A program made the translations under genes and the position numbers. Below, in pieces: positions 16,289-35,869 of a stretch of 64,000 nucleotides of DNA. The stretch's first letter is position 1; each line of letters opens with the position of its first letter. Source of the DNA: Myxococcales bacterium (lineage in GTDB: Bacteria; Myxococcota; Myxococcia; Myxococcales; Anaeromyxobacteraceae). The DNA is taken from the NCBI GenBank assembly GCA_021806645.1, contig JAJZQX010000005.1, positions 186,001 to 250,000 of the forward strand, written 5' to 3'. The notes beneath the pieces are model-generated. The model was not told where the DNA came from, ran no database searches, and worked only from the letters and a program-made list of their open reading frames with translations.

Positions 16289-16870
16289 TCAGGCCCCCCC
16301 GGCCGGGCCAGGCGCGGGCGCCGCGTCGGCCCCCAGGGGCAGGAGCCAGGACGGGACTGGCAGGGCCAGCCCCTCCAGGTAGGAGGCCAGGGTCATGGCC
16401 CCCAGCCCCTGCTCCTCGGGCGTGACCGCCCCGCCGGCGGGGGCGATCAGGTGGACGGCCAGGTCGCCGGCCCGGGCCGGCGGGGGCGGCCCACCCGGAA
16501 TCCGCCGGCACAGCTCCAGCTCGAAGGGGTTTCCCGCCGCGTCGCGCAGCCCGACGCGGACGGCCCCACCACCGGTGCGGCCGATCCAGTCGAGCGTCCA
16601 GCGCCCGAGCACGTCTCCGGGCTGGAGGCCGCCGAAGAGCGCGAGCACCGCGGCTGTGTGGGGCCCGGGAGCAGCCCCTGGCCCGGCGCAGCGGGTGACG
16701 GCGGCAGGCCCCCCCTGGCCCGCCGACGCGGGCGGCTCCGGCCGGAGGCGGGCGCGACGCCGCTCGGCGAATGTGCTGGCGCCGAGGGCGACCACCAGCG
16801 CCGCCGCCAGCAGGAGCATCGCCAGGCGGATCGGACCGAGGCTGCCGGCCAGCTCGACGAGCCCGCTCAC
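16289..16870 (-). CDS. Membrane-anchored protein of unknown function in a radical-SAM operon
   Basis: 193 residues from a GTG overlapping the radical-SAM gene's stop (GTGA). One N-terminal helix (RLAMLLLAAALVVALGAS, about residues 15-33) anchors it. The rest is soluble, with WTLDWIGRTGGGAVRVGL and FELELCRRIPGG. The strict overlap says it is made with the radical-SAM methyltransferase fusion. It is not recognised; it may be a membrane partner or transporter accessory for the modified product. Confidence 0.7.
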   Translation of the reverse strand: MSGLVELAGSLGPIRLAMLLLAAALVVALGASTFAERRRARLRPEPPASAGQGGPAAVTRCAGPGAAPGPHTAAVLALFGGLQPGDVLGRWTLDWIGRTGGGAVRVGLRDAAGNPFELELCRRIPGGPPPPARAGDLAVHLIAPAGGAVTPEEQGLGAMTLASYLEGLALPVPSWLLPLGADAAPAPGPAGGA

Positions 16871-18693
16871 CGCGCCACCTCCCCGGCGGCGCCGGCCGTC
16901 GCGCGCCCGCGGACCACCGGGAGGCGCCAGTGGAGGAGCCACTGGTTGCTGGTCTCCGGCCCCACGTCGCGCCGCTCCAGCAGCTCCAGCCCTCGATCCT
17001 CCAGCCAGCGCAGCGCCTCGCCGGCCCCGTCGTTCCGGAAGTGCTGGAAGCCGGCCGCCGAGCGCTCGCCGCGAGCCGCCTGGGCACGGGTCCGGACCAG
17101 TCCGAACCCCACGTTGTCCACCGCGGTGAGCGTGCCGCCGGGGCGGAGCGCCGTCAGCACCCGGTCGAGCGCCGCGGCCGGGTCGGCCAGGTGGTTCCAG
17201 CTTCGCAGGAAGAGGACGTGGTCCAGGCTCGCGCGCGGCAGCGACACCGCCTCGGCCCCCGCCTCGACGATCTCCGCCCAGGGACAGCGCGCCCGCATGG
17301 CCGCGGCGCGGCCGGCGTCGGGCTCCAGCCCGGTGTAGCGGAGCCGCCCGTCGCGCGCCGCGCCGGCCAGCGCCTCCGCGTAGGGACCGTCGCCGCACCC
17401 CACGTCGAGCACGTCCCCCTCCAGGCCGGAGAGCAGCCGCAGGACCCGCTGATCGTCCCGCGCGAACACGTTCTCCTCCACCGGCTCGAAGATCCCCGTG
17501 CAGCGCGCCCGCTCGGGGCAGGGGTCGCAGTCGCGGGCGCGCCGCAGCTGGACCAGCTGCCGGGCGAAGTCGTCCGGCGCGTCGCCGGGCGCCCGATCGA
17601 CGTAGACCTGGCCGAGCCGGTGCTTGACGTCGGCCACCTCGCCGTCGGTGAAGTCGGTGGTGTCGGTCCGGTAGCGCGCCAGCCGCCCGCCGTGGCGGGC
17701 GAAGAGGTGGCGGCCCCGGTCCCACGGGTCCACCCCGAGGTCGAGGATGGGGCACCGTCCCGGTGTCCCCCCCACCACCCGGCCCTCCAGCGTCCAGTGG
17801 AAGCCGTTGGGCTGGGGCCGGCCGGTGACCGGCCGCAGCTCGCCGTCGCCGCGCGCCTGGTGGTAGCCGAGGTAGAGCCCCGGGCACCGGCCGCGCCGCA
17901 GGCAGCCGCGGCAGACGGGCGGCTGGATGGAGTTGAGCGCGTCGACCGGGTGGAGATCGCGCTCGCCGACCTCCGCCATGGAGGCGAAGCCGTGGCTGCG
18001 CAGGTCGCTGCGCCGCTCCCCCAGCCCGGGCAGGAGGCAGAGCGGCAGGCCGTCGTGGGCCACGCCGGGCCGGCCGCCCGCCTCGGCGTGGCGGATGGCG
18101 TCGGCCACGGCCGCGGCGGCCTCGGTGACGCCGGGCACCAGGCCACCGCCGTCGCCGCCGGCGCCGCCGCGCGGCTCGACCATGGAGAACTTGAGCCGCA
18201 GGTCGGGGAAGGGGCGGAGCGCGTCCACCACGCCGCGCAGGTGGCCCAGGTTGTGGGTGGTCACCACGCAGTTCACCCAGGCCTCGAGCCCGCGGCCCGA
18301 CACCAGGGCCAGGGCGCGGCGCACCCGCTCGAAGGTGGCCGCGCCGGCCAGCAGGTCGTGCAGCTCGGCGGTGCCGCCGTGGAGCGAGAGGTGGACGTAG
18401 CGGAGCCTCCGCTCCAGCAGCCACCCGACGGTGGGGCCGTCCAGGCCGGTGCCGTTGGACACCAGGCCGAGGTCGAGCCCGAGCGAGGCGGTGAGGCCGG
18501 CCCAGCGCCTCAGCCCGGCCTGGAGCGAGTGCTCGCCCCCGGAGAAGGCCACCAGCCGGTGGCCGAGGTCCGCGGCGCGGCGGACCAGCCGCTCCACCTC
18601 TCCGGGAGGTGCGTCCGCGCCCCTCGACGCCCGGGAGTGGCAGAAGAGGCAGTCGCTGGTGCAGCGGTAGCCGACCTTGACGAGGGCCTTCAT
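16867..18693 (-). CDS. Radical-SAM protein with C-terminal SAM methyltransferase domain
   Basis: 608 residues. The iron-sulphur motif CTSDCLFC is at residues 11-18, followed by the SAM-binding FSGGE. Additional cysteine groups (CRGCLRRGRC, CDPCPERARC) could bind auxiliary clusters. From about residue 390 a class I methyltransferase follows: DVLDVGCGDGPYAEAL, then RSWNHLADP and VLTALRPGGTLTAVD. It lies at the left edge of the Hxs cluster, divergent from another radical-SAM gene 103 bases away. The fusion suggests a radical step plus a methyl transfer on the same substrate. Substrate unknown. Confidence 0.85.
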   Translation of the reverse strand: MKALVKVGYRCTSDCLFCHSRASRGADAPPGEVERLVRRAADLGHRLVAFSGGEHSLQAGLRRWAGLTASLGLDLGLVSNGTGLDGPTVGWLLERRLRYVHLSLHGGTAELHDLLAGAATFERVRRALALVSGRGLEAWVNCVVTTHNLGHLRGVVDALRPFPDLRLKFSMVEPRGGAGGDGGGLVPGVTEAAAAVADAIRHAEAGGRPGVAHDGLPLCLLPGLGERRSDLRSHGFASMAEVGERDLHPVDALNSIQPPVCRGCLRRGRCPGLYLGYHQARGDGELRPVTGRPQPNGFHWTLEGRVVGGTPGRCPILDLGVDPWDRGRHLFARHGGRLARYRTDTTDFTDGEVADVKHRLGQVYVDRAPGDAPDDFARQLVQLRRARDCDPCPERARCTGIFEPVEENVFARDDQRVLRLLSGLEGDVLDVGCGDGPYAEALAGAARDGRLRYTGLEPDAGRAAAMRARCPWAEIVEAGAEAVSLPRASLDHVLFLRSWNHLADPAAALDRVLTALRPGGTLTAVDNVGFGLVRTRAQAARGERSAAGFQHFRNDGAGEALRWLEDRGLELLERRDVGPETSNQWLLHWRLPVVRGRATAGAAGEVAR

Positions 18694-18796
18694 GGCGGGT
18701 GCGCGGCGCGACTGTAGCGCACCGGCGGCCACCTCTCCAGCCGGCCATCGGCGGGGCCGCGTTGATCGCGGGGCGGCCGCCGGGCATGATCCAGCC

Positions 18797-19753
18797 GTGC
18801 CCCCCGCCCCCACGACCGCGGCCCTGGCGCCGCCGTCCGGGCGCGTCGACCTCAAGGTCGGCTTCGCCTGCAACAACAGGTGCGTCTTCTGCGTGCAGGG
18901 GACCAAGCGGGAGCGGTTCGGGGCCAGGCCGGTGGAGGAACTGCGCGACATCCTGCGGCGTGAGCGGCCACGGGTGGACGCCGTCGTCTTCACCGGCGGC
19001 GAGCCGACGGTGCGCCGCGACCTGGCCGAGCTGGTGGCCTTCGCGCGCGACCTCGGCTACCGGACCATCCAGATCCAGACCAACGGCCGCATGCTGGCCC
19101 ACCGGGCCTACCTGGAGCGGCTGGTGGCGGCCGGCGCCACCGAGTTCTCCCCCGCCCTCCACGGCCACGTGGCCGCGCTCCACGACCACCTCACCGGAGC
19201 GCGGGGCGCCTTCGCCCAGACCGTCACCGGCATCCGCCACCTCAAGGCCATGGGACGCTTCGTCCTCACCAACACCGTGGTCACGCGCTCCAACTACCGT
19301 CACCTCCCGGAGATCGCCCGGCTGCTGGTCTCACTGGGGGTGGACCAGTTCCAGCTCGCCTTCGTCCACCCCGTCGGCACCGCCTTCACCCTCTTCGACT
19401 CGGTGGTCCCGAGGATGGAGCTGGCCGCCCCGTACCTGATGGCCGGGCTGAAGGTGGGGCTCGACGCCGGGCGCCGGGCCTACACCGAGGCGGTGCCGGC
19501 CTGCCTGCTGCCCGGCTACGAGGCCTGCGTGGCCGAGAAGCACATCCCCCGGACCGCCATCTACGACGCCGAGGCCACCATCGCCGACTACACCGCCTAC
19601 CGGCGGGACGAGGGAAAGCTCAAGGGTCCCGACTGCGGCGCCTGCCTCCATGACGCCGAGTGCGAGGGGCCCTGGCGGGAGTACCCGGAGCGGTACGGCT
19701 GGACCGAGTTCGTGCCGATCCGCGCGCCCGCCGCCGGAGGCGGCGCGCGGTGA
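18797..19753 (+). CDS. Radical-SAM protein of the Hxs cluster (1)
   Basis: 318 residues from GTG 18797. The 4Fe-4S motif CNNRCVFC is at residues 25-32 and GGE in FTGGEPTVRRDL. A family phrase, ALHGHVAALHDHLTGARGAF, is shared with the next genes. The C-terminus (CGACLHDAEC ... WREYPERYGWTEF) resembles a short SPASM-like auxiliary cluster. It is the first of four adjacent radical-SAM genes on this strand; the next starts within its stop codon (GTGA). Confidence 0.85.
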   Translation: MPPAPTTAALAPPSGRVDLKVGFACNNRCVFCVQGTKRERFGARPVEELRDILRRERPRVDAVVFTGGEPTVRRDLAELVAFARDLGYRTIQIQTNGRMLAHRAYLERLVAAGATEFSPALHGHVAALHDHLTGARGAFAQTVTGIRHLKAMGRFVLTNTVVTRSNYRHLPEIARLLVSLGVDQFQLAFVHPVGTAFTLFDSVVPRMELAAPYLMAGLKVGLDAGRRAYTEAVPACLLPGYEACVAEKHIPRTAIYDAEATIADYTAYRRDEGKLKGPDCGACLHDAECEGPWREYPERYGWTEFVPIRAPAAGGGAR

Positions 19754-21369
19754 GCGGCGCCACGGCGGCCACGGCGGCGCTGGCCCGTGAAGGGGCCGCC
19801 CTGGAGGAGCGCCAGTGGGTGAGGCTGACGCGCCGCTGCAACAACCGCTGCCTCTTCTGCCACGACTCGGATCGCCAGGACGGCACCAACGTCCCCATGG
19901 ACCGGGTGCTGGAGGAGATCCAGGCCGGACGCGCCCGCGGGGCCGCCCGGCTCGTCCTCTCCGGCGGCGAGGCCACGCTCCACCCCGGCTTCCTCCAGGC
20001 GGTGGCCGCCGGCCGCGCCGCCGGTTACCGCTGGGTCCAGGTCATCTCCAACGGCCGGATGTTCTCCTACGAGCGCTTCACCCGGCAGGCCGCCGAGGCC
20101 GGGCTCGACGAGGCCACCGTCTCCGTCCACGGTCACACCGCCGCGCTCCATGACGAGCTGGCCGGCGCGCCGGGCGCCTTCGCCCAGGCCCTGCGCGGGA
20201 TCCAGAACCTGCAGCGGGCCGGGCGGGTGGTCTCGGTGGACGTGGTGGTCTGCCGGCTCAACGTCGGCGTCCTCCCCGAGCTCCTCCGCTTCTTCATGTC
20301 CATGGGGATCATGGAGTTCGACCTGCTCCACCTGGTCCCCTTCGGCCGTGCCTGGGACCAGGAGCGGGATCGGCTCTTCTACGATCCGGCCACCGAGGCG
20401 CCGCGGCTGCTGGAGGCGCTCCGGATGGCCGCGCTCCCCGGCGTGCACCTCTGGACCAACCGCTGGCCGGCGCCGCTGCTGGAGGGGGCCGAGCACCTGG
20501 TCCAGGATCCCCACAAGCTGATCGACGAGGTGCGCGGCACCGCCGAGGGGTTCCAGGCGCTCATCGAGACCGGGACGCCCCTCCAGTGCGCCGGGGAGCG
20601 GTGCGGCGCCTGCGTGATGAAGCCCTTCTGCTCCGCGCTGGCGGAGGCGGTGGAGCGGCTGTCCGCCGGCCGATTCGAGGTGGTCTCGGTGACGGCTGCC
20701 GACGCCGCCGGGCTGGCCCCCGGCGCCAGGGGCGCGCTGGGGCGGCAGCGGGAGGCGGCCTGGCGGATCACCGCCCAGGACGGTGCGGCGGCGGCGGCGG
20801 CCCTGTCCCTCCTCCCGGCGGGACCCGGCGCGCCGCTGGAGTTCGACCTGCGCCGCTGGACCGGCCTCCCCGGCGCGCTCCGGCCCCGCGTCCGCCGCGC
20901 CGTGATCCGCGACGACGCGGCGCTGGAGGCGGCGCTGGCCCTCCCCGGCTGCGACCTGGAGGTGCCGCTGGAGCGGGCCACGGCGGCGGTGGCGGCCCGG
21001 GCGCTGGCGCGGGCGGAGGAGCGGGTGGTGCTGGCCGCCTCGCCGCGCTCCCGCCTCTCGGCCACGCTGGCCGAGGGGCTCCCGCCCACCGAGGTGGCGG
21101 CGCTGGCCGGCCGGTCCCGCGCCGAGGCGCTGCCGCGCTGCCTCGCCCCTCGCGCCGTCCTTCCGCGCGCCCGGATCGAGGCCGCCACGCTGCGCCCCGA
21201 TGGCCTGCTCGATCTCTTCCCCTGGGCCGAGCGGTACGTCGCCGAGCGGTCGCGCACCCGCTCCCTCCGGTGCGGCGGCTGCGCCGAGACGGATCGCTGC
21301 GACGGCGCGCACGTCAACGAGGTGCGGGCTCACGGCTTCTCCTTCATGCGGCCGATCGGAGTCGCCTGA
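19750..21369 (+). CDS. Radical-SAM protein of the Hxs cluster (2), long form
   Basis: 539 residues. CNNRCLFC lies at residues 30-37 and LSGGEATLHPGF follows. SVHGHTAALHDELAGAPGAF matches the same family phrase as gene 1. A cysteine group CAGERCGACVMKPFC ends the core at about residue 290. The next 200 residues look like a second, degenerate barrel without the CxxxCxxC motif (LEVPLERATAAVAAR ...), closed by CGGCAETDRCDG. The extra half may bind substrate. Confidence 0.85.
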   Translation: MSGATAATAALAREGAALEERQWVRLTRRCNNRCLFCHDSDRQDGTNVPMDRVLEEIQAGRARGAARLVLSGGEATLHPGFLQAVAAGRAAGYRWVQVISNGRMFSYERFTRQAAEAGLDEATVSVHGHTAALHDELAGAPGAFAQALRGIQNLQRAGRVVSVDVVVCRLNVGVLPELLRFFMSMGIMEFDLLHLVPFGRAWDQERDRLFYDPATEAPRLLEALRMAALPGVHLWTNRWPAPLLEGAEHLVQDPHKLIDEVRGTAEGFQALIETGTPLQCAGERCGACVMKPFCSALAEAVERLSAGRFEVVSVTAADAAGLAPGARGALGRQREAAWRITAQDGAAAAAALSLLPAGPGAPLEFDLRRWTGLPGALRPRVRRAVIRDDAALEAALALPGCDLEVPLERATAAVAARALARAEERVVLAASPRSRLSATLAEGLPPTEVAALAGRSRAEALPRCLAPRAVLPRARIEAATLRPDGLLDLFPWAERYVAERSRTRSLRCGGCAETDRCDGAHVNEVRAHGFSFMRPIGVA

Positions 21370-21380
21370 GGGCGAGCGCC

Positions 21381-22325
21381 ATGGCCAACCTCGGCTACGT
21401 CCAGGTCACCCGGTCCTGCAACCAGGCCTGCCGGTTCTGCAGCAACCCACCCTCCGGCCTGGAGATCGACCTCGCCGAGGCGCGGCGCCGCGTGGACGAC
21501 CTGGTGGCGCGCCGCTTCGACGGGGTCATCCTCACCGGCGGAGAGCCGACGCTGGTCCCTTGGTTGCCCGAGCTGGTGGCCCACGCGGCCTCGCGCGGCC
21601 TGGCGCCGCGCATCATCACCAACGGCCAGCGGCTGGCCGAGGGGCCGCTGCTAGACCAGCTCGCCGCCGCCGGCCTGCGCCACCTCCACGTGTCGCTCTA
21701 CTCCCACGACCCGGCCGTCCACGACCAGCTCACCTGCAACCCGGGCTCGCACCAGCGGGCCACCCGGACGCTGGAGCGGGTCGGCGAGCGGCCGGGGCTC
21801 TCCGCCGACGTCAACTGCGTCATCCACAGCTACAACGCCGGCAGCCTGGAGCGGGTGGTGGAACTGGTGCTGGCCCGCTTCCCCCACGTCCGCCACCTGG
21901 TCTTCAACAACCTCGACCCCCGCATGGAGCGGGTGGCCGCCAACCGGGACACCATCCCCCGCCTCGCCGACCTGGAGGTCTCGCTGGCCCGGGCCCTGCG
22001 GCTGCTCTCGGCCCGCGGCCTCACCTTCCGGGTCGAGCGGGTGCCGCTCTGCTACATGGCCGAGTGGGCTCATGCCTCCACCGAGACCCGCAAGCTGGTG
22101 AAGGACGAGGAGCGGGTCATCCACTTCCTCGACGGCAAGGGGACGGTGCGGCAGCAGGCCCAGGCCTTCCTGCGGGCCCGCGCCCCGGCCTGCGCCGCCT
22201 GCCGGGTCTCGGCCATCTGCGGCGGGCTCGACGGGCTGGGCGACTTCCACGACGGCGCCGAGCTCTACCCCATTTTCCTCGACCCGGACGAGATCGCCGC
22301 CCGCGTCCGGCGCGAGCGCGACTGA
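21381..22325 (+). CDS. Radical-SAM protein of the Hxs cluster (3), possible HxsC type
   Basis: 314 residues. CNQACRFC is at residues 13-20, directly followed by SNPP, which resembles the CxxxCxMCSQPP start recalled for HxsC maturases. GGE is present in LTGGEPTLVPWLPEL. C-terminal cysteines CAACRVSAIC may hold an auxiliary cluster. The ATG starts 11 bases after the previous stop, and the next gene begins one base past this stop. The HxsC assignment rests on that short motif only. Confidence 0.8.
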   Translation: MANLGYVQVTRSCNQACRFCSNPPSGLEIDLAEARRRVDDLVARRFDGVILTGGEPTLVPWLPELVAHAASRGLAPRIITNGQRLAEGPLLDQLAAAGLRHLHVSLYSHDPAVHDQLTCNPGSHQRATRTLERVGERPGLSADVNCVIHSYNAGSLERVVELVLARFPHVRHLVFNNLDPRMERVAANRDTIPRLADLEVSLARALRLLSARGLTFRVERVPLCYMAEWAHASTETRKLVKDEERVIHFLDGKGTVRQQAQAFLRARAPACAACRVSAICGGLDGLGDFHDGAELYPIFLDPDEIAARVRRERD

Positions 22326-22326
22326 C

Positions 22327-23313
22327 ATGGCGAAGCCTCCCCGGGACGCCACCTACGACGAACGCCTGGCCTCCCGCCAGGGGTGGCTGCACATCGCCAT
22401 CGGGGTGGTCTGCAACAACCGCTGCCTCTTCTGCATGGAGGAGGACCGCGAGAAGCGGGCCATCACCAACGCCGCCATGACGCCGGAGCGGGTCCGCTGG
22501 CTGCTGGAGACCGAGCGCGGCGCCCCCGAGGTCTGCTTCGTGGCAGGCGAGCCGACCACGCGCCAGGAGCTGCCCACCTTCGTGGCCTGGGCCCGCGAGC
22601 TCGGCTATCCGCGCATCGGCGTCATGACCAACGGCCGGCGGCTCTCCTATGCCCCGTACGCCACCGCGCTCCTCCGGGCCGGCCTCAACCGCGCCTACGT
22701 CTCCCTCCACGCCCACACCGCCGAGCTCCACGAGGGGCTCACCCGCGCCCCGGGCAGCTTCGCGCAGACGGTGGCCGGGATCCGGACCATGGCCTCGCTC
22801 CGGCCGCCCGGCTTCACCCTCAACACCTCGACGGTGGTCAACAAGCGGAACCTGCCCCACCTCGGCGAGATCTACCGGTTCCTGCGCGGGCTCGGCGTCG
22901 ACCAGGTGGTCTTCAACGTCATGAAGACCGAGGGGGGCGGCGAGACCCACTTCGAGCCGCTCTTCCCGCGCTACCGCGAGATCGCCGCGGCGTTCGCGCG
23001 GGTCTGCCGCGAGGCGGGCCAGCCCCGGCCACCGACCTTCCTGGTGGACATCCCGCCGTGCACCACCACCGCCGTCCCCGACTTCAACCGCGGCTTCGTG
23101 GAGCACCCCAACCGCTTCGAGACGAGGCTGGACCACGCAGGGTCGCCCGGTGAGGACGTTGCGGACAGCCCGGGACTGGCGAGGATCCGCCACGTCGAGG
23201 GTCGTGAGAAGCGCGGGGCCTGCGCGAGTTGCCGCCACGACCCGGTCTGCCCGGGGGTCTGGAGCGGCTACCTGGCGCGGAACGGCTGGGAGGAGTTCGA
23301 GCCGGTCCAGTGA
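22327..23313 (+). CDS. Radical-SAM protein of the Hxs cluster (4)
   Basis: 328 residues. CNNRCLFC is at 29-36 and the SAM site reads VAGEPTTRQEL, so the usual GGE is AGE here. SLHAHTAELHEGLTRAPGSF repeats the family phrase. The C-terminus CASCRHDPVCPGVWSGYLARNGWEEF is like that of gene 1. It is the last of the co-directional run; the next gene converges 27 bases later. Confidence 0.85.
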   Translation: MAKPPRDATYDERLASRQGWLHIAIGVVCNNRCLFCMEEDREKRAITNAAMTPERVRWLLETERGAPEVCFVAGEPTTRQELPTFVAWARELGYPRIGVMTNGRRLSYAPYATALLRAGLNRAYVSLHAHTAELHEGLTRAPGSFAQTVAGIRTMASLRPPGFTLNTSTVVNKRNLPHLGEIYRFLRGLGVDQVVFNVMKTEGGGETHFEPLFPRYREIAAAFARVCREAGQPRPPTFLVDIPPCTTTAVPDFNRGFVEHPNRFETRLDHAGSPGEDVADSPGLARIRHVEGREKRGACASCRHDPVCPGVWSGYLARNGWEEFEPVQ

Positions 23314-23340
23314 GGGACCGGCTCCTCCCGCCGCGTCCGG

Positions 23341-25476: not shown

Positions 25477-25974
25477 ATGACCGTGGACGTGCAGGTGGAC
25501 CCGAGCGTCTACCCCATCGAGGTCGTGATGGGGGCCGCCTACGTCTTCGTCGATCGCTGCTTCTTGCTGCTCGATCGGACCGGCGACGGCCGCGTCCGGG
25601 TTGCCTTCACCGCCCGGCCCGGGGCCGGGCCGGAGGCGCTCCAGTCCCTGGCCGGCGAGTTCCAGAACGAGCTGCTGGCCCAGGCGCTGCGGGCCCGCCT
25701 CGCCGAGCGGCACGAGAAGCTGCGCGAGGCGCTGGTGGCCCGCGCCCTCTTCGGCGCCGCGCCCGAGCTGGCGCCGGTGGTTCCGGCCCCGACCGACGAG
25801 CAACTGGGGCTGGAGGCCCGCTTCCTGCCGGCCGAGGGGGACGACTACCTCGACGACCCGCTCGGCATCGCCGTCCCCTGGGAGGAGAAGTACGCCCCGG
25901 CCGGCGCCGAGGTCACGGCCGCCGGCGCGCCGAAGCCGGCTCCGGCCGGCCCCGCCGGCGGGACGTCGAAGTGA
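25477..25974 (+). CDS. hxsD: His-Xaa-Ser system protein HxsD
   Basis: 165 residues from the ATG at 25477, which follows GAGGAA; an upstream ATG (25444) has no ribosome site. VDPSVYPIEVVMGAAYVFVDR and GEFQNELLAQALR followed by KLREALVARALF match the HxsD family, whose hallmark is an E/DF-x-N-E-x-x-L-Q-x-L-R-x-x...LREAIVAxAL pattern. HxsD is a small accessory of the Hxs modification system with unknown biochemical role. An Ala/Pro-rich tail follows. Its stop overlaps the start of hxsB. Confidence 0.85.
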   Translation: MTVDVQVDPSVYPIEVVMGAAYVFVDRCFLLLDRTGDGRVRVAFTARPGAGPEALQSLAGEFQNELLAQALRARLAERHEKLREALVARALFGAAPELAPVVPAPTDEQLGLEARFLPAEGDDYLDDPLGIAVPWEEKYAPAGAEVTAAGAPKPAPAGPAGGTSK

Positions 25975-27513: not shown

Positions 27514-29787
27514 GTGCGCGTCCTCGTCCTCCACCCGCCGCTCTCGGTCGGCCGCGACTTCATCGACTATCCGTGGGCCACGGACCTGGGCGCCGTGCAG
27601 CTGGCGACGTTGCTGCGCCTGGACCACGAGGTGGTGCTGCTCGACGCCTTCGCCCTCCCCGGCGCCGACGTCGCGCCGCGGCCGGGTGGCGGCCTCCGGC
27701 TCGGCCTGCCGCCGGCGCTGCTCCTCGATCGGATCGCCGGGGCCGGCCGGTTCGACGCCGCCGTGGTGGCGCTGACCCCCTTCCACCGGCCGCCGCGCCG
27801 GGACGACCTGCTCGGCGAGCTGTGCGCGGGGCTGCGCGCCCGCCTGGGCGGCGTGCCGCTGCTGCTGGCCGACTGCCACCAGGGTGGCCAGCACGCCGTG
27901 GCGTCCGACGGCGCGCGGCTGCTGGCCAGCTACCCCGAGGCCGACGCCTGCGTTCAGCACGAGGCCGAGGTCACGGTCCCGGCCCTGCTGGCGGCGCTGG
28001 GAGCGGGAGGCGCGCTCCCCGGCGGCGTCCACGCCGGAACCGAGGCCGACCTGGACACCCTCCCGCCGCCGGCCTGGGAGCTCGTCGACCTGGCGGCGCG
28101 GGACCGGTTCCAGCGCCGGGTGGTCGAGGCGCTGGGACGTCCGGAGTGGCCCTTCCCGCTCGACGGCCGCACGCTGCCGGCCCTCACCTCGCGCGGCTGC
28201 CCCTTCGACTGCCTCCACTGCACCTCGAACCCGGGGCGCCCCGCCGGCGCCCCCAAGACCCAGCGGCGGCTGTCGCCGGCCCGGGTGCGCGCCCTGCTCG
28301 AGGCGCTGGCCCGGCGCCACGGCGCCACCCGGGTCTGGCTGCTCGACGAGCTGGTCAACGCCAGCCCCGCCCACCTCGCCGCCGTCCTCGAGGCCGCCGA
28401 GGCGCTCGACCTGCCCCTGGAGCTGCCCAACGGGCTGCGCGCCGACCTCCTCCCGGTCGAGCTGCTGCCGCGGCTGAAGCGCCGCTTCACCACCTTGAGC
28501 GTGAGCGCCGAGAGCGGCGTGCAGCGGGTGGTGGACGAGGTGGTGGGCAAGCGGCTCGACCTGGGCGCCGTGGAGCGGGTGGCCGCCGGCTGCGCCGCGG
28601 CGGGGCTGCCGCTCCTGGTCCACTACATCATCGGCCTCCCCGGCGAGACCCCCGAGGAGATCAACGCCACGCTGGCCCACGCCGCCGACCTCGAGGAGCG
28701 TCACGGCGCCCGGCCGGCGGTCCAGTTCGCCACCCCGCTGCCCGGGAGCCGCCTGGCCCGGCTGCGGCCACCGGCGCCGGAGACCGGGGACTTCGGCCCG
28801 CGCTTCCAGGCCCTCCCCAGCGAGACCAGCGCCCTGGTGCCGGCCGGGGCCCTGGCCCGCTTCCTCTGGGCCTTCGAGCGGCGGGTCCGGCCCGGCGGAC
28901 CGCGCAAGCTGGTGCTCAACCTGACCTACCGCTGCAACAACCACTGCGCCTTCTGCGCCGTGGGCAACCGGCCCCGCCTCGACGGCGACCCGGCCCGGCA
29001 GCTCGCGGCGCTGGAGCGCGCCCGGCGCGAGGGGGCGACCCTGCTCGATCTCGACGGCGGCGAGCCGACGCTCCACCCCGGCCTGTTCGACGTGATCGAC
29101 CGGGCCCGCGCCCTCGGCTACCAGCGCATCGCCGTCACCACCAATGGCCGCCGCTGCGCCTACCCGCCCTACGCCCGGCGGCTGGCGGTCTCCGGCCTGA
29201 GCACCGTCCTGGTGAGCCTCCACGGCCCCGACGCCGCCACTCACGGCGCCCTGGTCGGGGTCGAGGAGGCCTTCTCGCAGACCACCGAGGGGATCCGGCA
29301 ACTGCTGGCGGCGGCGCCGCCGGGGGTCGAGGTGGGGGTCAACGCCACGGTGGTGCGCGGCAACGTGGAGCGGCTTGGTGAGCTGGCGGCGCTGGTCCAG
29401 GCGCTGGGGGCGCGCCGGCTCAACCTGCAGTTCCTCACCCCCTTCGGCCGGGCCACCCGCGACCAGGCCCCGGACGCCACCGTGGCCGCCGCGCAGGTCC
29501 GCGCCGTGGTGGAGCGCTGGGCAGGCTCGCTGCAGGTGGGGATCGTCAACCTTCCCCTCTGCCAGCTGCCGGGCCACGAGGCGCTGGTGGCGCCCGACCT
29601 CGGCAAGCGGCAGCGCCACATGGTCTTCGTCAACGACGAGGAGGTGAACCTGGCCGCCTACCTGGCGGAGCGGCGCGTCCGCCGGCCCGAGTGCGCCCCC
29701 TGCCCCTTCGCCGCCTGCTGCGCCGGCTTCTACGAGCTGCCTGAGGAGCCCGAGGCCGCCTGGCCCTCGGCGGCGGTGACCACCTGA
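27514..29787 (+). CDS. Fusion of two radical-SAM domains, first with cobalamin-binding-like N-terminus
   Basis: 757 residues from ATG 27514. Residues 1-170 resemble the Rossmann-like domain that precedes B12-dependent radical-SAM cores (MRVLVLHPPL, VVALTPF, VPLLLADCHQGG). The first cluster motif CPFDCLHC is at 229-236. A second complete core starts at about residue 465 with CNNHCAFC at 474-481, DLDGGEPTLHPGLF, and SLHGPDAATHGALVGVEEAF. The second half belongs to the same family as the other cluster genes. Two radical chemistries on one polypeptide is uncommon. The end overlaps the convergent gene by 58 bases. Confidence 0.85.
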   Translation: MRVLVLHPPLSVGRDFIDYPWATDLGAVQLATLLRLDHEVVLLDAFALPGADVAPRPGGGLRLGLPPALLLDRIAGAGRFDAAVVALTPFHRPPRRDDLLGELCAGLRARLGGVPLLLADCHQGGQHAVASDGARLLASYPEADACVQHEAEVTVPALLAALGAGGALPGGVHAGTEADLDTLPPPAWELVDLAARDRFQRRVVEALGRPEWPFPLDGRTLPALTSRGCPFDCLHCTSNPGRPAGAPKTQRRLSPARVRALLEALARRHGATRVWLLDELVNASPAHLAAVLEAAEALDLPLELPNGLRADLLPVELLPRLKRRFTTLSVSAESGVQRVVDEVVGKRLDLGAVERVAAGCAAAGLPLLVHYIIGLPGETPEEINATLAHAADLEERHGARPAVQFATPLPGSRLARLRPPAPETGDFGPRFQALPSETSALVPAGALARFLWAFERRVRPGGPRKLVLNLTYRCNNHCAFCAVGNRPRLDGDPARQLAALERARREGATLLDLDGGEPTLHPGLFDVIDRARALGYQRIAVTTNGRRCAYPPYARRLAVSGLSTVLVSLHGPDAATHGALVGVEEAFSQTTEGIRQLLAAAPPGVEVGVNATVVRGNVERLGELAALVQALGARRLNLQFLTPFGRATRDQAPDATVAAAQVRAVVERWAGSLQVGIVNLPLCQLPGHEALVAPDLGKRQRHMVFVNDEEVNLAAYLAERRVRRPECAPCPFAACCAGFYELPEEPEAAWPSAAVTT

Positions 29788-30671
29788 GCGGTGCGGGCGG
29801 CGATGATCTCCCCGTCGCCGAAGCGCGCCAGGTAGTCGGGCCGGACCCCCGGGCAGAGGTCACGGTGCGGGCACCCGTCGCAGGCCGGCACGTGGACCCG
29901 ACCGAAGAGCCGGCTGTCGGCCAGGTCGAAGGTGGCCTCGGGCGTCACCACCCTCACCCGAGTCGAGCCTGGATCCCAGGCATGGCCGGCGTCCGCCCCC
30001 AGCAGGCAGCGCGGGAGGTGGAGCGAGCGGGCCTCCACGCCAAGCTCTCGGGCCGCCGCCAGCGCCGCCGCGAGCCGGGGCATCGCCTCGGTCATGCGCG
30101 GCAGCGACGCCACGTTGTCGCGGTTGGCGTCGGTGAGCGAGACGAAAGAGAAGTCAATCCGGCGGACCCCCCTGGCGGCCAGCCAGCGCACCGCCCCCTC
30201 CAGGTGGGGCTGCGTCCCGGCGGTGATGATGAGGTCGGCGCGCAGGGCCACGCCGCTCGCCACCAGCTGGTCGAGCGCCGCGACCATGAGGGCGTGGCTC
30301 CCGGGGCGGCGCACCATCCGGTCGTAGGGCTCGGCGAGGTTGGTGTGGACCGAGAGGTGGACCAGGTTCACGCCCGCGGCGAGCAACCGCTCGACGTTGG
30401 AGCGCTGGGCCAGGAGCAGGCCGTTGGTCTGCAGCTTGAGCTCGCGATACCCGAGCGCCCGCGCGGCCCGGACCAGCCCCACCAGGTCGCGCCGCACGGT
30501 CGGCTCACCGCCGGTGAACGACACCGCGTCGAAGCCGTCGGCGCGCCCGCGCCGGAGCGCCTCGAGCACGGCGGCCGCCGGGAGCACCCGGCCACGCATG
30601 GCGATCGCGCAGGTGCAGTAGTCGCACGCGAGGTTGCAGTCGTAGGTGAGGATGAGGTCGAGCAGCGCCAC
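29730..30671 (-). CDS. Radical-SAM protein of the Hxs cluster (5)
   Basis: 313 residues from GTG 30671, though GTG 30698 is possible. CNLACDYC is at 12-19 and FTGGEPTVRRDL follows. SVHTNLAEPYDRMVRRPGSH replaces the family phrase. A C-terminal CDGCPHRDLCPG could bind a cluster. It diverges from the next gene, so a shared control region lies in 30672-30781. Confidence 0.8.
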   Translation of the reverse strand: MALLDLILTYDCNLACDYCTCAIAMRGRVLPAAAVLEALRRGRADGFDAVSFTGGEPTVRRDLVGLVRAARALGYRELKLQTNGLLLAQRSNVERLLAAGVNLVHLSVHTNLAEPYDRMVRRPGSHALMVAALDQLVASGVALRADLIITAGTQPHLEGAVRWLAARGVRRIDFSFVSLTDANRDNVASLPRMTEAMPRLAAALAAARELGVEARSLHLPRCLLGADAGHAWDPGSTRVRVVTPEATFDLADSRLFGRVHVPACDGCPHRDLCPGVRPDYLARFGDGEIIAARTAQVVTAAEGQAASGSSGSS

Positions 30672-30781
30672 GCCGGCGAGGGTAGCCGCGCGCCGCACCT
30701 GACCACAAGGCGAGCGCGGCGCCCGCCTCTCGCGGCGGCCCGAGCCTCGACCGGGATGGCGGGCCGGTCTAGGCTGGCTCG

Positions 30782-32596
30782 GTGCGGCCTGCGGCATCTC
30801 CTCGCGGCGCCACGGGCGCCGGCGCCGGCCCGCGGACGCTCCTCTACATCCACCCCCGCGGCCACCTGAACGACCTGGTGGTGCCGGCCGGAGCCCTCTC
30901 GGCGCTCAACGCGGCGGCGGGTCCGAAGCTGGGCCGGTACGCCTTCGAGGTCACGGACGAGGAGATCTCCGCGGCCGGCGTCGTCGCCCTCGACCTCCAC
31001 TGGGCGCTGGGGCTGGGCGGGCTGATCCCGCTGGTGGCCCGGATCCGCGCCCTCCGGCCGGAGGTCCCCATCGTGGTGGGCGGCATCTCGGCCGGCCACT
31101 TCCCCGTGGAGCTGCTGGAGCACGTCGGCGTCGACTACGTCATCCGCGGCGACGCCGAGGCGGCCTTCCCGCTGCTCATCGAGGCGCTGCGGGCCGGGCA
31201 CCCTCTCGGCCCGCTCCCCAACGTCTGGAGCCGGGCCGGCGCGGGCCCGCGGCAGCGGCTGTCGTCCGACGCCTTCGACGCCACCGACCCGCTCACCGCC
31301 GACTGGTTTCCCACCCTATCGCTGGTACGTGACTGGCCGGCCGCCGCCTTCCCCATGTCGTCCACCATCCCGGTGGCCCGCGGCTGCGCCCTGCGCTGCC
31401 CCACCTGCAACGGCTCCCACGCCGCCGTCTCCGGGGAGGAGGTGCTGCTCCGTTCTCCCGAGGGCTTGGCGCGGCAGCTCGAGCGGGCCAGCGAACTCGG
31501 CCTCCGCAGCCTCCGCCTCCTCCTCGGCAAGGTGCCTGGCCCGCGGCTCACGGCGCTGCTCGCGGCGGCGGCGCGGCTCGGCCCGTTCCGCTTCGACGAA
31601 GGCGTCGGGCTCTACCTGTGCACGCCACCGAGCCCCGGGGATCTAGAGGCGCTGGAGACGACGTTCGAGGCGCGGGTCACGCTCTCGATGGTGCCGCCGG
31701 CCGAACACACCCCGCCCCCGTCGCCGCAGACCCTGGCGCGCGAGGAGGCGGCGTGGCACGAGGTCGCGGAGCGGGTGCGCCGGTCGCAGAGGCTTCAGCT
31801 CGACGTCTGGGCGGCCAGTCCAGCGCAGGCGTCCGCGGCGGCGGCGTGGGCGGGCCCCCTCGGCTCCCGCGTTGCGGTCAGCCTGGGCTCGGTCTGGGAC
31901 CTCTCCCGCCCCGGCGGCCCCGACCGCCCGACGCTCCCGGAGTTGCGCGCCGCAGTGGAGCCGCTCTGGACCTTCTACGCGGCCCGGCTGCTCTCGCCGG
32001 CGCTGGAGCCGCTGCTCGCACCGTTTCGCCTGCTCGACGAGCTGGAGTCCGATCCGGCCGCGCAGCAGCCGGTGGCCGGCCCCCTGCGGGCCTGGCAGCA
32101 GGTGATCCTCGCCCGCTGGCAGGCCAACCGGCTCCCCACGCTCCCGGGCCTCACCTTCGTCGCCGTGCCGGCGCGGATGGGGGCTGGCGCCATGCCCGAG
32201 CGCCGCTTCGGCCAGTCCCGGCTGCACGGCGCGGTCGCCTGGCATCCCCCGGGGGCCCTGAGCCTCCGCGCCGGGGCCTCCGTGCCGCTCCAGGTCGACG
32301 AGGCGCACGACGCCGTCCGCCTGCGCGGCGTCCTCGACCTCGAGGCGGGAGACGAATGGGTGGCCATCATCGCTCGACCGCCTCCGGGCGTGACCGTCGA
32401 GGGCTTCGAGGAGGCGGTGGCGGCGCACGGCCTGGTCGCCATCATCGGTCCGCCGGGCGCGGCGCGGAGGATGACGCTGCAGATCTCGCTGCGGGTCCAG
32501 GAGGCCGAGGTGGCGCTGCTCGATGACATGGGGGTGCCGGTCCGGCGTGGCCGGGTCGAGCTTGGATACCTGCGCCCCCCGCCGCCGGGGCCCTGA
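30782..32596 (+). CDS. Radical-SAM-like protein with cobalamin-binding-like N-terminus
   Basis: 604 residues from GTG 30782. Residues 18-160 look like the Rossmann-type domain of B12-dependent radical-SAM proteins (LLYIHPRGHLNDL, PIVVGGISAGHFP, VDYVIRGDAEAAFP). CALRCPTC lies at 202-209. After that the barrel is unusual: I see no GGE site, and the C-terminal 150 residues are strand-rich. It may have lost part of the usual radical-SAM core. No neighbour overlaps it. Confidence 0.75.
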   Translation: MRPAASPRGATGAGAGPRTLLYIHPRGHLNDLVVPAGALSALNAAAGPKLGRYAFEVTDEEISAAGVVALDLHWALGLGGLIPLVARIRALRPEVPIVVGGISAGHFPVELLEHVGVDYVIRGDAEAAFPLLIEALRAGHPLGPLPNVWSRAGAGPRQRLSSDAFDATDPLTADWFPTLSLVRDWPAAAFPMSSTIPVARGCALRCPTCNGSHAAVSGEEVLLRSPEGLARQLERASELGLRSLRLLLGKVPGPRLTALLAAAARLGPFRFDEGVGLYLCTPPSPGDLEALETTFEARVTLSMVPPAEHTPPPSPQTLAREEAAWHEVAERVRRSQRLQLDVWAASPAQASAAAAWAGPLGSRVAVSLGSVWDLSRPGGPDRPTLPELRAAVEPLWTFYAARLLSPALEPLLAPFRLLDELESDPAAQQPVAGPLRAWQQVILARWQANRLPTLPGLTFVAVPARMGAGAMPERRFGQSRLHGAVAWHPPGALSLRAGASVPLQVDEAHDAVRLRGVLDLEAGDEWVAIIARPPPGVTVEGFEEAVAAHGLVAIIGPPGAARRMTLQISLRVQEAEVALLDDMGVPVRRGRVELGYLRPPPPGP

Positions 32597-32618
32597 TCCT
32601 GGTCGCCGACCCGCGACC

Positions 32619-33974
32619 TCAACTCCCTCGGGCCAGCTGCTGCATGCGGCGGACAAGCGGGTCGTTGGTGCTGGATGCGAGGATCCGTTCCACCGGGTAC
32701 AAGTGCTCGTGGAAGTAGTCGAAGCAGGTGTCGAGCTCGCGGACCGTCATCCCCGGGTGGGCGAAGCGCCAGAGGCCGGGCGCCAGTGCCTCGAGCGGCA
32801 GCCCGGCCACGGCCGCCTCGTGCCGCCGGTATTCCTCGCTCCCCGGCGTGATGGCAAAGGCGGTGAGGTTCGGCGTCACCCCGAGCCGGTAGAGCCAGAG
32901 GGCCGCCTCCAGGACCTGGTCGGTGGTCTGGCCTGGCAGCCCCACCAGGTAGAAGGCCTTGAGCCGCTTCCCGGTGAACCCGTGCGCCTGCAGGATGGAC
33001 ACCGCGCGGACGAACTGGTCGAGCTCTTGCGGGCGGCGCATGGCCCGCGCTCTCTCCGGGTCCAGGGTCTCCAGCGCCAGGATGACGTCGGAGACCCGCC
33101 CGTCGGCCAGGCGCCGGGCCAACTGGTCGTCCACCTGGTTGGCCGCGATGCCGGTGGCGAACTCGAGCCGGACGTCGAGCCGCTCCTGGGCAACCAAGTC
33201 GAGCAGTGGCTCGACGTAGCGGGACCGCTGGTAGAGCACGGCGTCGTCGTGGAAGACGAAGTCCCGGATTCCATGGACCGCTGCCTTCTCCTTCATCTCC
33301 GCCAGCACCGCCTCCGGTTCGCGGGCCCAGGTCATCCCCCCGTTGAGCGCCGGGGTGACGCAGTAGCTGCAGTGGTTCGGACAGCCCTTCACGAGGCGGA
33401 GCCAGTCTTGCCGCACCGGCTGGGGCAGGAGATCGATGGCGGTGGCCGCGAAGGATGCCTCCGCCACGCCACCACGCACCACCTCGTCGGCCCCGGCGCG
33501 GGCGGCGGCCTCGCCGCAGAGCGTCGGGTAGTTCCCACCCAGCACGATGCGCGCGCGCGGGTGGACTCGCCGACAAGCCGCGATGGTCTCCTCGAAGACC
33601 CGGGCGTGCCAGGTGAAGGTGGCGGAGATGGCGATCAGGTCCGGAGCAACACGCTCGGCGAGCCTTTGCTCCAGCAACCCGCCATCGAGTCCGAGGTGGA
33701 CGATCTCCCGGGTCTGCACCCCCTCGCCATCGTCACCGCACCGGAGCCGCTCTCGCACCCTTCCCCTGGTCCGGCCTTCGAGCGCCGGATCCGACAGCGC
33801 GTCGAGCAGTTCCACCTCGGCACCCCGGCCCCTGAGCCAGGTGGCCAGCCGCAACAGCCCGTAGGGCGGGGTGGCGGCCGACCTCCAGCGGTCGTCGGCC
33901 GCGGCGATCTCGGCGGCGGGCGGATTGAGGAGGAGGACCCTCTTCCCGGCGGCAGCGGCGAGCAGGCTCGACAT
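32619..33974 (-). CDS. B12-binding-domain radical-SAM protein
   Basis: 451 residues. Residues 10-175 form a cobalamin-binding-like Rossmann domain (RVLLLNPPA, PPYGLLRLATWLRGRG, IAISATFTWHARVFEE, IVLGGNYPTLCGEAAA). No clear DxHxxG cobalt-ligand motif is seen. The radical-SAM core has CPNHCSYC at 198-205 and the ELP3-type motifs VFHDDAVLYQ and LALETLDPERARAMRRP, like B12-dependent methylases and cyclases. It is the last gene of the minus-strand operon started by the HxS precursor, 12 bases after the glycosyltransferase. Confidence 0.85.
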   Translation of the reverse strand: MSSLLAAAAGKRVLLLNPPAAEIAAADDRWRSAATPPYGLLRLATWLRGRGAEVELLDALSDPALEGRTRGRVRERLRCGDDGEGVQTREIVHLGLDGGLLEQRLAERVAPDLIAISATFTWHARVFEETIAACRRVHPRARIVLGGNYPTLCGEAAARAGADEVVRGGVAEASFAATAIDLLPQPVRQDWLRLVKGCPNHCSYCVTPALNGGMTWAREPEAVLAEMKEKAAVHGIRDFVFHDDAVLYQRSRYVEPLLDLVAQERLDVRLEFATGIAANQVDDQLARRLADGRVSDVILALETLDPERARAMRRPQELDQFVRAVSILQAHGFTGKRLKAFYLVGLPGQTTDQVLEAALWLYRLGVTPNLTAFAITPGSEEYRRHEAAVAGLPLEALAPGLWRFAHPGMTVRELDTCFDYFHEHLYPVERILASSTNDPLVRRMQQLARGS

Positions 33975-33986
33975 CGTCCGTCGATC

Positions 33987-35090
33987 TTAGGGCGACGAAC
34001 CCGGGACCAGCAAGCCAGCCTGCCGCGCCGGATCGGCGCCGGCTGCGGGCGCCAGGAATGCATCTCGGAAGAACTGCTCCACGCGCTCGTTGTCCCGTGC
34101 GTTGCGCTGAAAGGCCGCCTCCACGAGGGCGGCCCGGCCCGGTTCCGTGGGGGCACGGCGCAGGGCCGAGGCCAGTGCCACCGGATCCTCCGGTGGCACC
34201 AGGATGCCGCTCACCCCGTCGATGAGGTAATCCCGGACCGCCGGCACGTCGCTCGCCACCAGGAGGGTGCGCAGGTGCTGGGCGAAGGCGAGGGTCTGCT
34301 GGCCACAGCTCCCCTCGCCGGCCCGAAGTGCGAGCACCAGGACCCGGGCGGCGGCGACGGCGGCCAGGAAGTCGGGGAGCGGGACGAGGCCATGGTAGTT
34401 GAGCCACGGAGAGGCGACGGGCGCCACCCGGTCCAGGTCGGTGAGGATGTGGACGCGGACGCGCGCCAGCTCGGCGGCGCGCGCCAGGGTGGCGACGTCA
34501 CGGTTGTTGACGCCAGCCAGGAGGATGCCCCCGGCCACGTCACGGAGAGAGTTCGGCAGTGGCCGGGTGGACGCCTCGGCGAGCGCCTGCGACGCGCCGG
34601 GCAGGATGGGGGCCTGCACCGTGTTGGCCGCTATGAAGGCGCCCCGCTCTGGCGGCAGTCCGGCTGCGACCAGCGGCTCGAGGTGGGCGCGCGTCGTGAC
34701 GTACCAGCGGAAGCCGGTGTCTGCCGCCGCCAGCACCAGGGGGTCGTCGCCGTAGGCGCGACCAATCAACTCCCGGAGCGGGGTTACGCGCTCCAGCAGG
34801 TTCACCACGTTGACGATCCAGCGGAGCGGGCGCAACCCGTGGCGAGTCCGGGCGTAGTGGAGCAGCACCGCTTCGGGAGCCTCGGCGTAGACCCAGTCGA
34901 ACCCCTCGGTCTCGGCCACGGCCCGGTCGAGCGCCTCCCGCTGCACCACCGGGTCACGATCGGGCGAGCGCCGGAAGCGGACCAGGTCCTCGAGCGTGAA
35001 GCAGGCCACGGTGAACTCGGCCCCGAGCCACTGCGTGTTGAGGCCGGCCAGGCTCCCGCGCCCCTCGTTGGTGACGTGCAGGATCCTCAC
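33987..35090 (-). CDS. GT-B-fold glycosyltransferase next to the HxS precursor
   Basis: 367 residues from a GTG. The N-terminus (VRILHVTNEGRGSLAGL) and the C-terminal donor-site region (EGSCGQQTLAFAQHLRTLL, DGVSGILVPPEDPVALASAL) match GT4-type glycosyltransferases, which move a sugar from a nucleotide donor. It is downstream of the precursor and HxsD-like genes and upstream of a radical-SAM gene on the same strand. A role in glycosylating the Ser-rich repeats is plausible but not shown. Confidence 0.8.
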   Translation of the reverse strand: MRILHVTNEGRGSLAGLNTQWLGAEFTVACFTLEDLVRFRRSPDRDPVVQREALDRAVAETEGFDWVYAEAPEAVLLHYARTRHGLRPLRWIVNVVNLLERVTPLRELIGRAYGDDPLVLAAADTGFRWYVTTRAHLEPLVAAGLPPERGAFIAANTVQAPILPGASQALAEASTRPLPNSLRDVAGGILLAGVNNRDVATLARAAELARVRVHILTDLDRVAPVASPWLNYHGLVPLPDFLAAVAAARVLVLALRAGEGSCGQQTLAFAQHLRTLLVASDVPAVRDYLIDGVSGILVPPEDPVALASALRRAPTEPGRAALVEAAFQRNARDNERVEQFFRDAFLAPAAGADPARQAGLLVPGSSP

Positions 35091-35153
35091 GTCAGGTCCC
35101 GTGCCGGACCAGGGGACCCGGGGTGGTCCCTCCCATCACCGGGACGGGTCCTC

Positions 35154-35411
35154 TCAGCCGCGGTGGAGCGCGCTGGCGGCCAGCGCCCAGTTGGCCAGCT
35201 CGAGGCGGAGCAGCGCGCCGTCGCGCCCGCCACGAGCCTGGAGCCTGACCCGCCGGTAGGGCCCGTGCGGCTCCACCGAGCAGGCGGCCACGGGCGAGAA
35301 GGCCTCGACGGCCTGCTCCACCACGGGGAGGGGGTAGAAGTCCTGGTGCAGGTCGAGCACCTGCTCGGCCCCCGCAAAGGCCATGTCCGCTCCGCCCGGA
35401 GGCCCGGTCAC
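35154..35411 (-). CDS. Short HxsD-like protein next to the HxS precursor
   Basis: 85 residues from a GTG overlapping the precursor's stop (GTGA). Its sequence lines up by eye with HxsD at 25477: YPLPVVEQAVEAF against YPIEVVMGAAYVF, RRVRLQA against GRVRVAF, and LRLELANWALAASAL against GEFQNELLAQALRAR. It is half the length and lacks the C-terminal tail. It is probably a second HxsD or a minimal accessory paired with this HxsA. Confidence 0.65.
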   Translation of the reverse strand: MTGPPGGADMAFAGAEQVLDLHQDFYPLPVVEQAVEAFSPVAACSVEPHGPYRRVRLQARGGRDGALLRLELANWALAASALHRG

Positions 35412-35869
35412 CAGGAGCCGTGGGAGGCGTGTGAGCCGTGTGAGCCGTGGGACGCGTGGGAGCCGTGCGAGCCGTGCGAGCCGTGCGAGCCGTGGGAGCA
35501 GTGCTGGGCGACGGTGTAGCTGCCCTTGGGGCCGCGGCCGGACTGGCGGGTGGTCACTGGCTGCCCCTGGGGCAGCGGCGGCGGCGCCTCGGCGGGGGAG
35601 GCGGTCGGCGAGTCGCCGCCACCAGGAACGGCGGTTCTCCCGGCCGGGTTGAAGCTGGCGCTGGCCCGCTCCGGCCGGAAGAAGATGCCGCCGGCGGTGA
35701 TGACCATCCCGGCCAGTGAGCTGTTCATCAGGAAGTCGCGGCGGGTGAAGGCTCGCTCGGAGCCGGCCAGGAAGCCGGCAGCGGCGCGGGGCGTCGTCGG
35801 GGTCGCTTCCGGCCCAGCAGCGGGGATGGTCGAATCCTGCTTCGGGCCCTGCTTGACGTTCTCGCCCAT
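35408..35869 (-). CDS. hxsA: HxsA-type precursor with ten His-Xaa-Ser repeats and a Tat signal
   Basis: 153 residues. A polar leader (1-41) is followed by a twin-arginine signal, TRRDFLMNSSLAGMVITAGG (RR at 43-44), then a Pro/Gly-rich linker. From residue 123 to 152 there are ten HxS triplets: HCS, four HGS, HAS, two HGS, HAS, HGS, ending in Trp 153. HxS repeats define HxsA, the peptide modified by HxsB/HxsC. The ATG follows AGGGAG. The Tat signal implies that a folded or modified form is exported. It starts the minus-strand operon with the HxsD-like, glycosyltransferase and radical-SAM genes. Confidence 0.85.
   Translation of the reverse strand: MGENVKQGPKQDSTIPAAGPEATPTTPRAAAGFLAGSERAFTRRDFLMNSSLAGMVITAGGIFFRPERASASFNPAGRTAVPGGGDSPTASPAEAPPPLPQGQPVTTRQSGRGPKGSYTVAQHCSHGSHGSHGSHGSHASHGSHGSHASHGSW
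35411..35503 (-). repeat. Nine-base tandem repeats encoding HxS triplets
   Basis: Ten near-identical 9-base units (plus strand GTGGGAGCC-type) encode His-Gly/Ala/Cys-Ser. The repeat length is a multiple of three, so the copy number can change without shifting the frame. Confidence 0.85.

Follow-up and report, generated by a model that had tools for sequence, protein, structure and literature searches.

An expanded HxsA4-type His-Xaa-Ser peptide modification cluster with ten radical-SAM genes, recurring across the Myxococcota

In this work, we describe a gene cluster found in a 64,000-nucleotide stretch of DNA (hereafter the window) from a Myxococcales bacterium of the family Anaeromyxobacteraceae (GenBank assembly GCA_021806645.1, contig JAJZQX010000005.1, positions 186,001 to 250,000). 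The cluster is a 19.6-kb block of 15 genes at window positions 16289-35869, comprising a precursor gene of the His-Xaa-Ser (Hxs) type, hxsA, an hxsD-hxsB pair, and ten radical S-adenosylmethionine (rSAM) genes, hxsB among them. Our results indicate, with a probability that we place at roughly 60%, that it encodes an expanded Hxs system of the HxsA4 type, i.e., a pathway for a ribosomally synthesized and post-translationally modified peptide (RiPP), with crosslinking, tailoring and an envelope location as proposed features. Within this reading, strong support was obtained for the leader-core precursor, the conserved enzyme set and their co-inheritance. The chemistry is likely to be unusually elaborate and undescribed, with the ten rSAM enzymes predicted to modify HxsA in many steps.

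The Hxs system, reportedly described by Haft and Basu, is represented by the NCBIfam models TIGR03976-TIGR03979. A first-pass annotation of the block had proposed one HxS precursor and an hxsD-hxsB pair, and family models bear this out: hxsA (35408..35869, minus strand) matched the HxsA4 model NF038313 at 58 bits (cut-off 55), hxsD (25477..25974, plus strand) matched TIGR03976 at 53 bits (cut-off 50), and hxsB (25965..27482, plus strand), which encodes a SPASM-type rSAM maturase (CNQGCVYC), matched TIGR03978 at 501 bits (cut-off 370). The HxsB and HxsD models had been set beforehand as a refutation test, and with both matching above cut-off the claim is not refuted. The fourth component corresponds to rS4 (21381..22325, plus strand, CNQACRFC), whose best NCBIfam match is the HxsC model TIGR03977, at 88 bits against a cut-off of 267.9, yet which is sister to the canonical HxsC proteins of ordinary Myxococcota hxs loci (support 0.893); the locus was therefore filed as a divergent variant rather than as canonical Hxs. 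Given this grouping, the locus keeps the A-D-B-C core, to which a conserved battery of extra rSAM genes has been added. Canonical Myxococcota loci (L206-L213), by contrast, contain only hxsA-D-B-C, with one HxsB and one HxsC, and their precursor repeat is short and mixed (HRS/HSS/HYS; HRSHRSHSSHRSHYS), whereas that of the block is nearly pure HGS and ends in Trp; the block further adds eight rSAM genes, a methyltransferase domain and a glycosyltransferase. Also close is the catalogued HxsA4/HxsC4 variant (NF038313, NF038332): the precursor exceeds the HxsA4 cut-off, and rS5 (22327..23313, plus strand, CNNRCLFC) shares a clade with members above the HxsC4 cut-off (e.g., those of genomes G067, G068 and G070), although rS5 itself remains below that strict cut-off. 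The existence of models named HxsA4 and HxsC4 implies that curators had already separated this variant, which is thus catalogued as protein families. HxsD of the HxsA4 type also carries a near-invariant C-terminal motif, DDPLGIAxxWEEKY, located after the TIGR03976 domain (alignment A1), which was absent from three of the four canonical HxsD proteins aligned and partial in the other; the predicted model of HxsD is a beta-alpha-beta-beta-alpha arrangement matching common folds only (Z about 8).

The coordinates and gene counts first given for the block proved right, as did the tally of ten rSAM genes bearing eleven CxxxCxxC motifs. The gene with two motifs is rS7 (27514..29787, plus strand), in which a B12-type rSAM half (CPFDCLHC) is fused to an HxsC-like half (CNNHCAFC). 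At the background rate of the rest of the 4.14-Mb genome, about 0.2 rSAM domains would be expected in a 19.6-kb block; this one has eleven (P ~1e-16), a density beyond chance. HxsC or HxsC4 was the best-scoring model for six of these genes, namely rS4, rS5 and rS7 together with rS2 (18797..19753, plus strand, CNNRCVFC; NF038332 183 bits), rS3 (19750..21369, plus strand, CNNRCLFC; NF038332 108 and TIGR03977 102 bits), whose C-terminal half is long and bears a second Cys motif at its end, and rS8 (29730..30797, minus strand, CNLACDYC; NF038332 86 bits). Of the remaining four, one is best matched by HxsB, and rS1mt (16867..18693, minus strand, CTSDCLFC) by a sactipeptide maturase model; the latter is a genuine fusion, as initially claimed, of an rSAM domain (PF04055, 62 bits) and a class-I SAM methyltransferase (PF08241, 51 bits). 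B12-type rSAM models scored best for both rS9 (30782..32596, plus strand, CALRCPTC), a B12-binding protein (PF02310 32.3 bits, cut-off 32.1) with a degenerate rSAM domain, and rS10 (32619..33974, minus strand, CPNHCSYC), a B12-binding rSAM (PF04055 64, PF02310 52 bits). Nine of the ten genes pass the Pfam cut-off of PF04055, rS9 being the one below it (21.2 versus 29.5 bits).

The twin-arginine (Tat) signal of HxsA, FTRRDFLMNSSLAGMVITAGG (TRRDFL), is followed by a linker rich in Pro and Gly, after which come the core HCSHGSHGSHGSHGSHASHGSHGSHASHGSW and the stop codon. This core reads HCS-HGS4-HAS-HGS2-HAS-HGS-W, i.e., HCS-(HxS)9-W. Over 123 distinct precursors, core length varied from 7 to 59 triplets and the terminal Trp was present in every case; many of these were retrieved with a DNA pattern that included the Trp, and the precursors retrieved by hidden Markov model (HMM) alone also end in it. 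The first X position is Cys in 84 of the 123, and later X positions are Gly in 1716/1762. Within genes, the minor-base fraction at third codon positions reached 0.32-0.39 for Gly and Ser and 0.11 for His, compared with 0-0.06 for His and Gly codons at their first two positions; since third positions vary and the others hardly do, selection acts on the protein and not only on a DNA repeat. Furthermore, a leader motif of roughly [F/M]-L-x-x-E-x-x-[I/V]-[S/T] was detected in 85% of the upstream regions, against 16% of shuffles. With a conserved leader, a selected core and linked modification enzymes, HxsA has, as far as its sequence can tell, the properties of a RiPP precursor.

Recurrence of the gene set was assessed in a phylum survey of 195 Myxococcota genomes. 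HxsA4 exceeded its cut-off in 15 of them, and all 15 encoded HxsC4-like rSAM proteins (E <= 1e-30; Fisher P 8e-20), which were found elsewhere in three genomes only, at least one of them (G165) with an evident precursor scoring below cut-off. Orthologs of rS1mt, rS2, rS3, rS4, rS5, rS7, rS8, hxsD and hxsB recur in the HxsA4 genomes, many close to the precursor, and two genomes carry 13 rSAM open reading frames (ORFs) within about 33 kb (G068) and 26 kb (G070). Many of the gene-neighbour clustering matches corresponded to shadow frames of high-GC DNA and were disregarded. Canonical HxsC (16/195) and HxsA4 (15/195) genomes showed zero overlap, and with a P value of 0.62 mutual exclusion is not claimed. 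A DNA-pattern scan for HGS-HGS-HGS-W-stop, with one genome per species, yielded at least 116 stretches; most of the matches listed were labelled Myxococcota, a myxobacterial group or 'Deltaproteobacteria', with Nannocystis, Polyangium and Plesiocystis as named cultured hosts, and an rSAM gene was present in 41 of the 80 listed tiles (up to 8 kb) around such stretches. Additionally, among 40 further (HGS)nW genomes, picked mostly for having no rSAM gene adjoining the precursor, HxsB exceeded its cut-off in 39, and each of the 30 (HGS)nW genomes tested contained 2-12 HxsC4-like rSAM genes. The system is therefore real, though often scattered over the genome, and the second refutation test set in advance, whether the other rSAM genes co-occur with HxS precursors, was answered by their doing so in many Myxococcota.

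A tree of 261 rSAM domains (FastTree supports, root uncertain) assigned each main enzyme of the window to an ortholog group of its own: HxsB (42 genomes, support 0.989), rS2 (25 genomes, 0.945), the most widespread of the extra rSAM proteins, rS5 (20 genomes, 0.943), rS1mt (19 genomes, 1.0), rS3 (17 genomes, 0.893), rS8 (10 genomes, 0.983) and the C-terminal half of rS7 (10 genomes, 0.929), the rS7 ortholog of a genome from the same genus (G051) being 79% identical.

Three genes encode neither rSAM proteins nor recognized Hxs components. The glycosyltransferase and the Cys-repeat lipoprotein predicted at the outset are both present: the former (33987..35090, minus strand) is GT4-like (PF13692, 36.6 bits, cut-off 27), with homologues in the clusters of G006 and G165; the latter (23341..25293, minus strand) resembles MXAN_6577, its family match staying below cut-off (77 versus 100 bits), and its homologues directly adjoin hxsD in three distant genomes (G002, G005 and G006). 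A second HxsD-like protein had also been announced and has to be withdrawn. The sole candidate, orf1 (16289..16870, minus strand), has no HxsD match in family scans and belongs to no known family, its profile-profile comparison with HxsD gave 2.3% probability, and Foldseek returned no significant match for its fold. Its homologues mostly bear Tat-type signals (SRR...) and are neighbours of rSAM genes in further HxsA4 clusters (L122, L134, L146, L155 and genome G055). The protein is a small, uncharacterised membrane-anchored or Tat-type companion and is not HxsD-like.

Regarding mechanism, hxsA supplies a leader and a repetitive core, HCS-(HGS)n-W, with HxsD, HxsB and the divergent HxsC, rS4, very probably as the inherited core machinery. 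HxsB and rS4 would act on each His-Gly-Ser triplet, most likely by forming a carbon-carbon link from His(i) to Ser(i+2). This proposal is made by analogy: the rSAM enzymes HaaB and ScaB connect C2 of His with the beta-carbon at position i+2, e.g., of Ala, and MscB joins Phe to Ser C-beta (review PMC11002830), and His-Gly-Ser has exactly the i/i+2 spacing of the His C2 links. Maturation of triceptides, or three-residue cyclophane RiPPs (XncB, HaaB, YhhB, MscB), in which SPASM/twitch-type rSAM enzymes modify motifs of three residues and some of the links run from His(i) to i+2 (PMC11002830), would be the closest chemistry, whereas the maturase families differ (models of known cyclophane maturases matched HxsB far below cut-off: XyeB 38, YhhB 38, GrrM 35 and FxsB 35 bits), the block has ten rSAM genes, and for HxsB such a bond is a proposal. 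A second parallel is the poly-cyclopropylglycine RiPP of TvgA/TvgB, whose repetitive core is modified many times by rSAM chemistry (PMC9062424), as is predicted for the block; there, however, the repeat contains Val (TVG), and a single rSAM of an unrelated maturase type is involved.

As the core offers little else, the targets of the extra enzymes must be His, Gly, Ser, the one Cys or the one Trp. We propose that the further HxsC-like rSAM proteins (rS1, rS2, rS3, rS5, rS8 and the C-terminal half of rS7), the B12-type rSAM domains (the N-terminal half of rS7, rS9 and rS10), the fused methyltransferase and the glycosyltransferase all tailor the repeats, the one Cys and the invariant Trp at the end. 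The B12-type domains and the methyltransferase suggest methylation, and the GT4-like enzyme points to glycosylation of Ser or of a group of the product. In this strain, the finished peptide would be folded, cross the inner membrane through the Tat route, and stay at the cell envelope with orf1 and the Cys-rich lipoprotein; the Tat signal, the membrane companion and the failure to identify a peptidase or ABC exporter among the annotated genes of the block point to such a location. Of the original proposal of a multi-step RiPP pathway that crosslinks, methylates and glycosylates its peptide, the pathway is well supported by recurrence and model matches, while the three chemistries are predicted from enzyme classes.

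About half of the HxsA4-type relatives additionally carry a nitrogenase-like H-D-K reductase that falls into no known subclass; a PF00148 search found no such genes in the window's own genome. In G002 (L047, G002:C102:101192-105832), the interval from hxsB to hxsA holds two D/K-type subunits and a NifH-like Fe protein in which the P-loop and both Cys of the cluster are conserved, and in G165 (L054, G165:C59:12024-18465) two D/K pairs and an Fe protein are found downstream of hxsB-hxsA-rS1mt. Nitrogenase-like genes adjoin or are near rS2/rS4 in G007 (L079, G007:C247), G005 and G006, a K-D pair adjoins hxsB in G227, and further loci (L214-L232) are placed beside hxsB, hxsA or rSAM genes of HxsA4 systems. 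The eight G002 and G165 proteins scanned matched every NCBIfam nitrogenase, DPOR, COR and F430 model below cut-off, and D plus K retain three conserved Cys, which are also kept in protochlorophyllide reductase. All 13 phylum genomes whose best PF00148 match was below 200 bits are HxsA4/HxsC4 genomes (P 1e-16); the remaining PF00148 genomes score above 200 bits, which fits genuine nitrogenase or Bch enzymes. PF00148 proteins were also detected in 20 of the 40 further HGS-W genomes, with up to 12 matches per genome and frequently in an operon with an rSAM gene. The association of the reductase with HxsA4 systems is strong. A tentative proposition, to which we give somewhat less than even odds, is that these systems represent a RiPP pathway of a new type, with a nitrogenase-like, ATP-driven H-D-K reductase and a dozen rSAM enzymes working together on one His-Gly-Ser repeat peptide.

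Several observations weigh against the expanded HxsA4-type system proposed here. No gene of the block passes the HxsC cut-off (267.9), the best candidates scoring 70-102 bits, and the exception-model cut-off of HxsC4 (500 bits) is not reached by rS5 (438.6). A PqqD-like recognition (RRE) domain was sought in HxsB and HxsD and could not be confirmed: the HxsB N-terminus gave neither Pfam nor PDB matches, and the HxsD model matched common folds only. In many genomes the enzymes are dispersed rather than clustered, rS9 has few relatives, and rS10 has few, including homologues in the HxsA4-type loci of G001 and G007, and both may be lineage-specific. The Tat signal occurs in a minority of precursors (about 14/105), and Tat export is thus not general. 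Moreover, a literature search, in which most subscription papers were out of reach, found no measured modification of any Hxs system and no paper reporting their product, these systems being known from sequence.

A possible, if less than likely, role of the product is not that of a released antibiotic but that of an envelope protein that binds metal or is redox-active, in which ordered His residues would bind metal, rSAM steps would lock the geometry and Tat would export the loaded protein. Having His at every third residue suits this role, as do the Tat signal with the membrane/Tat companion and the fact that neither peptidase nor ABC exporter was identified among the annotated block genes; that the Tat signal is not general in relatives speaks against it. 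As a hypothesis on role, it is compatible with an expanded HxsA4-type system. We regard it as improbable that the product is a cofactor, redox or metal, released by excision from an end of HxsA, e.g., around the invariant Trp, in the manner of PQQ and mycofactocin, which are cut out of precursor peptides; the HGS repeat would then be a scaffold, and the glycosyltransferase would decorate the cofactor. The Trp that ends all 123 precursors, HMM-found ones included, the presence of a glycosyltransferase and many rSAM enzymes, and the nitrogenase-like reductase added in relatives would fit such a cofactor, but protein-level selection for HGS identity over 7-59 repeats is hard to square with a scaffold, no peptidase was identified among the cluster genes, and canonical Hxs precursors have no HGSW ending. 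Finally, it is very unlikely that two unrelated pathways adjoin here, one of them a small Hxs core and the other a separate cluster of rSAM, B12 and glycosyltransferase genes: the scarcity of rS9 and rS10 relatives, the glycosyltransferase found in two other clusters only and the alternating gene strands would agree with this, but rS1-rS5, rS7 and rS8 are found again with HxsA4 in different families of the phylum, and HxsC4-like genes are tied to HxsA4 by co-occurrence (P 8e-20).

Other features of the window and its genome were also recorded. No cobalamin riboswitch or other RNA element was found in the block above Rfam thresholds; elsewhere in the window, a class A RNase P RNA lies at 57756-58152 (minus strand, 278 bits), and positions 41322-56200 (minus strand) hold several very long high-GC open frames of up to 2125 aa, a HEAT_2 repeat being the only match, in one of the two frames scanned. 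The same genome contains a second RiPP-like cluster (G000:C8:160-173 kb; L065, L066), with an HxsB-like SPASM enzyme (352 bits, just below cut-off), a TIGR03975 rSAM C-methyltransferase (542 bits) and three further rSAM-like ORFs, and another multi-rSAM cluster with five domains in ~13 kb, mostly of B12-type grouping (G000:C2:6.8-19.4 kb; L067). Another HxsB-like group, scoring ~310-345 bits and thus below cut-off, was present in other Myxococcota (G101, G113, G115, G121, G124, G133-G137); some of its members may constitute a separate maturase family.

The same limited literature search retrieved no paper on HxsA4/HxsC4, none describing the remaining gene set or the nitrogenase-like partner found in relatives, and none on a nitrogenase-like enzyme in a RiPP pathway. 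New here are the rSAM battery that recurs, with rS4 as an HxsC ortholog, the phylum-wide HGS-W signature and the nitrogenase-like module that relatives carry. In this extreme and informative arrangement, the core presents essentially three residue types, one Cys and one Trp to up to a dozen or more rSAM genes, which narrows down the chemistry that is possible and opens it to testing by mass spectrometry. Furthermore, the methyltransferase fusion, the B12-type rSAM, the glycosyltransferase and the nitrogenase-like reductase are optional recurring modules, so that enzyme roles could be assigned by comparing strains that differ in them. If the reductase does belong to the pathway, it would be the first known case of a nitrogenase-superfamily enzyme acting on a ribosomal peptide or feeding electrons to one.

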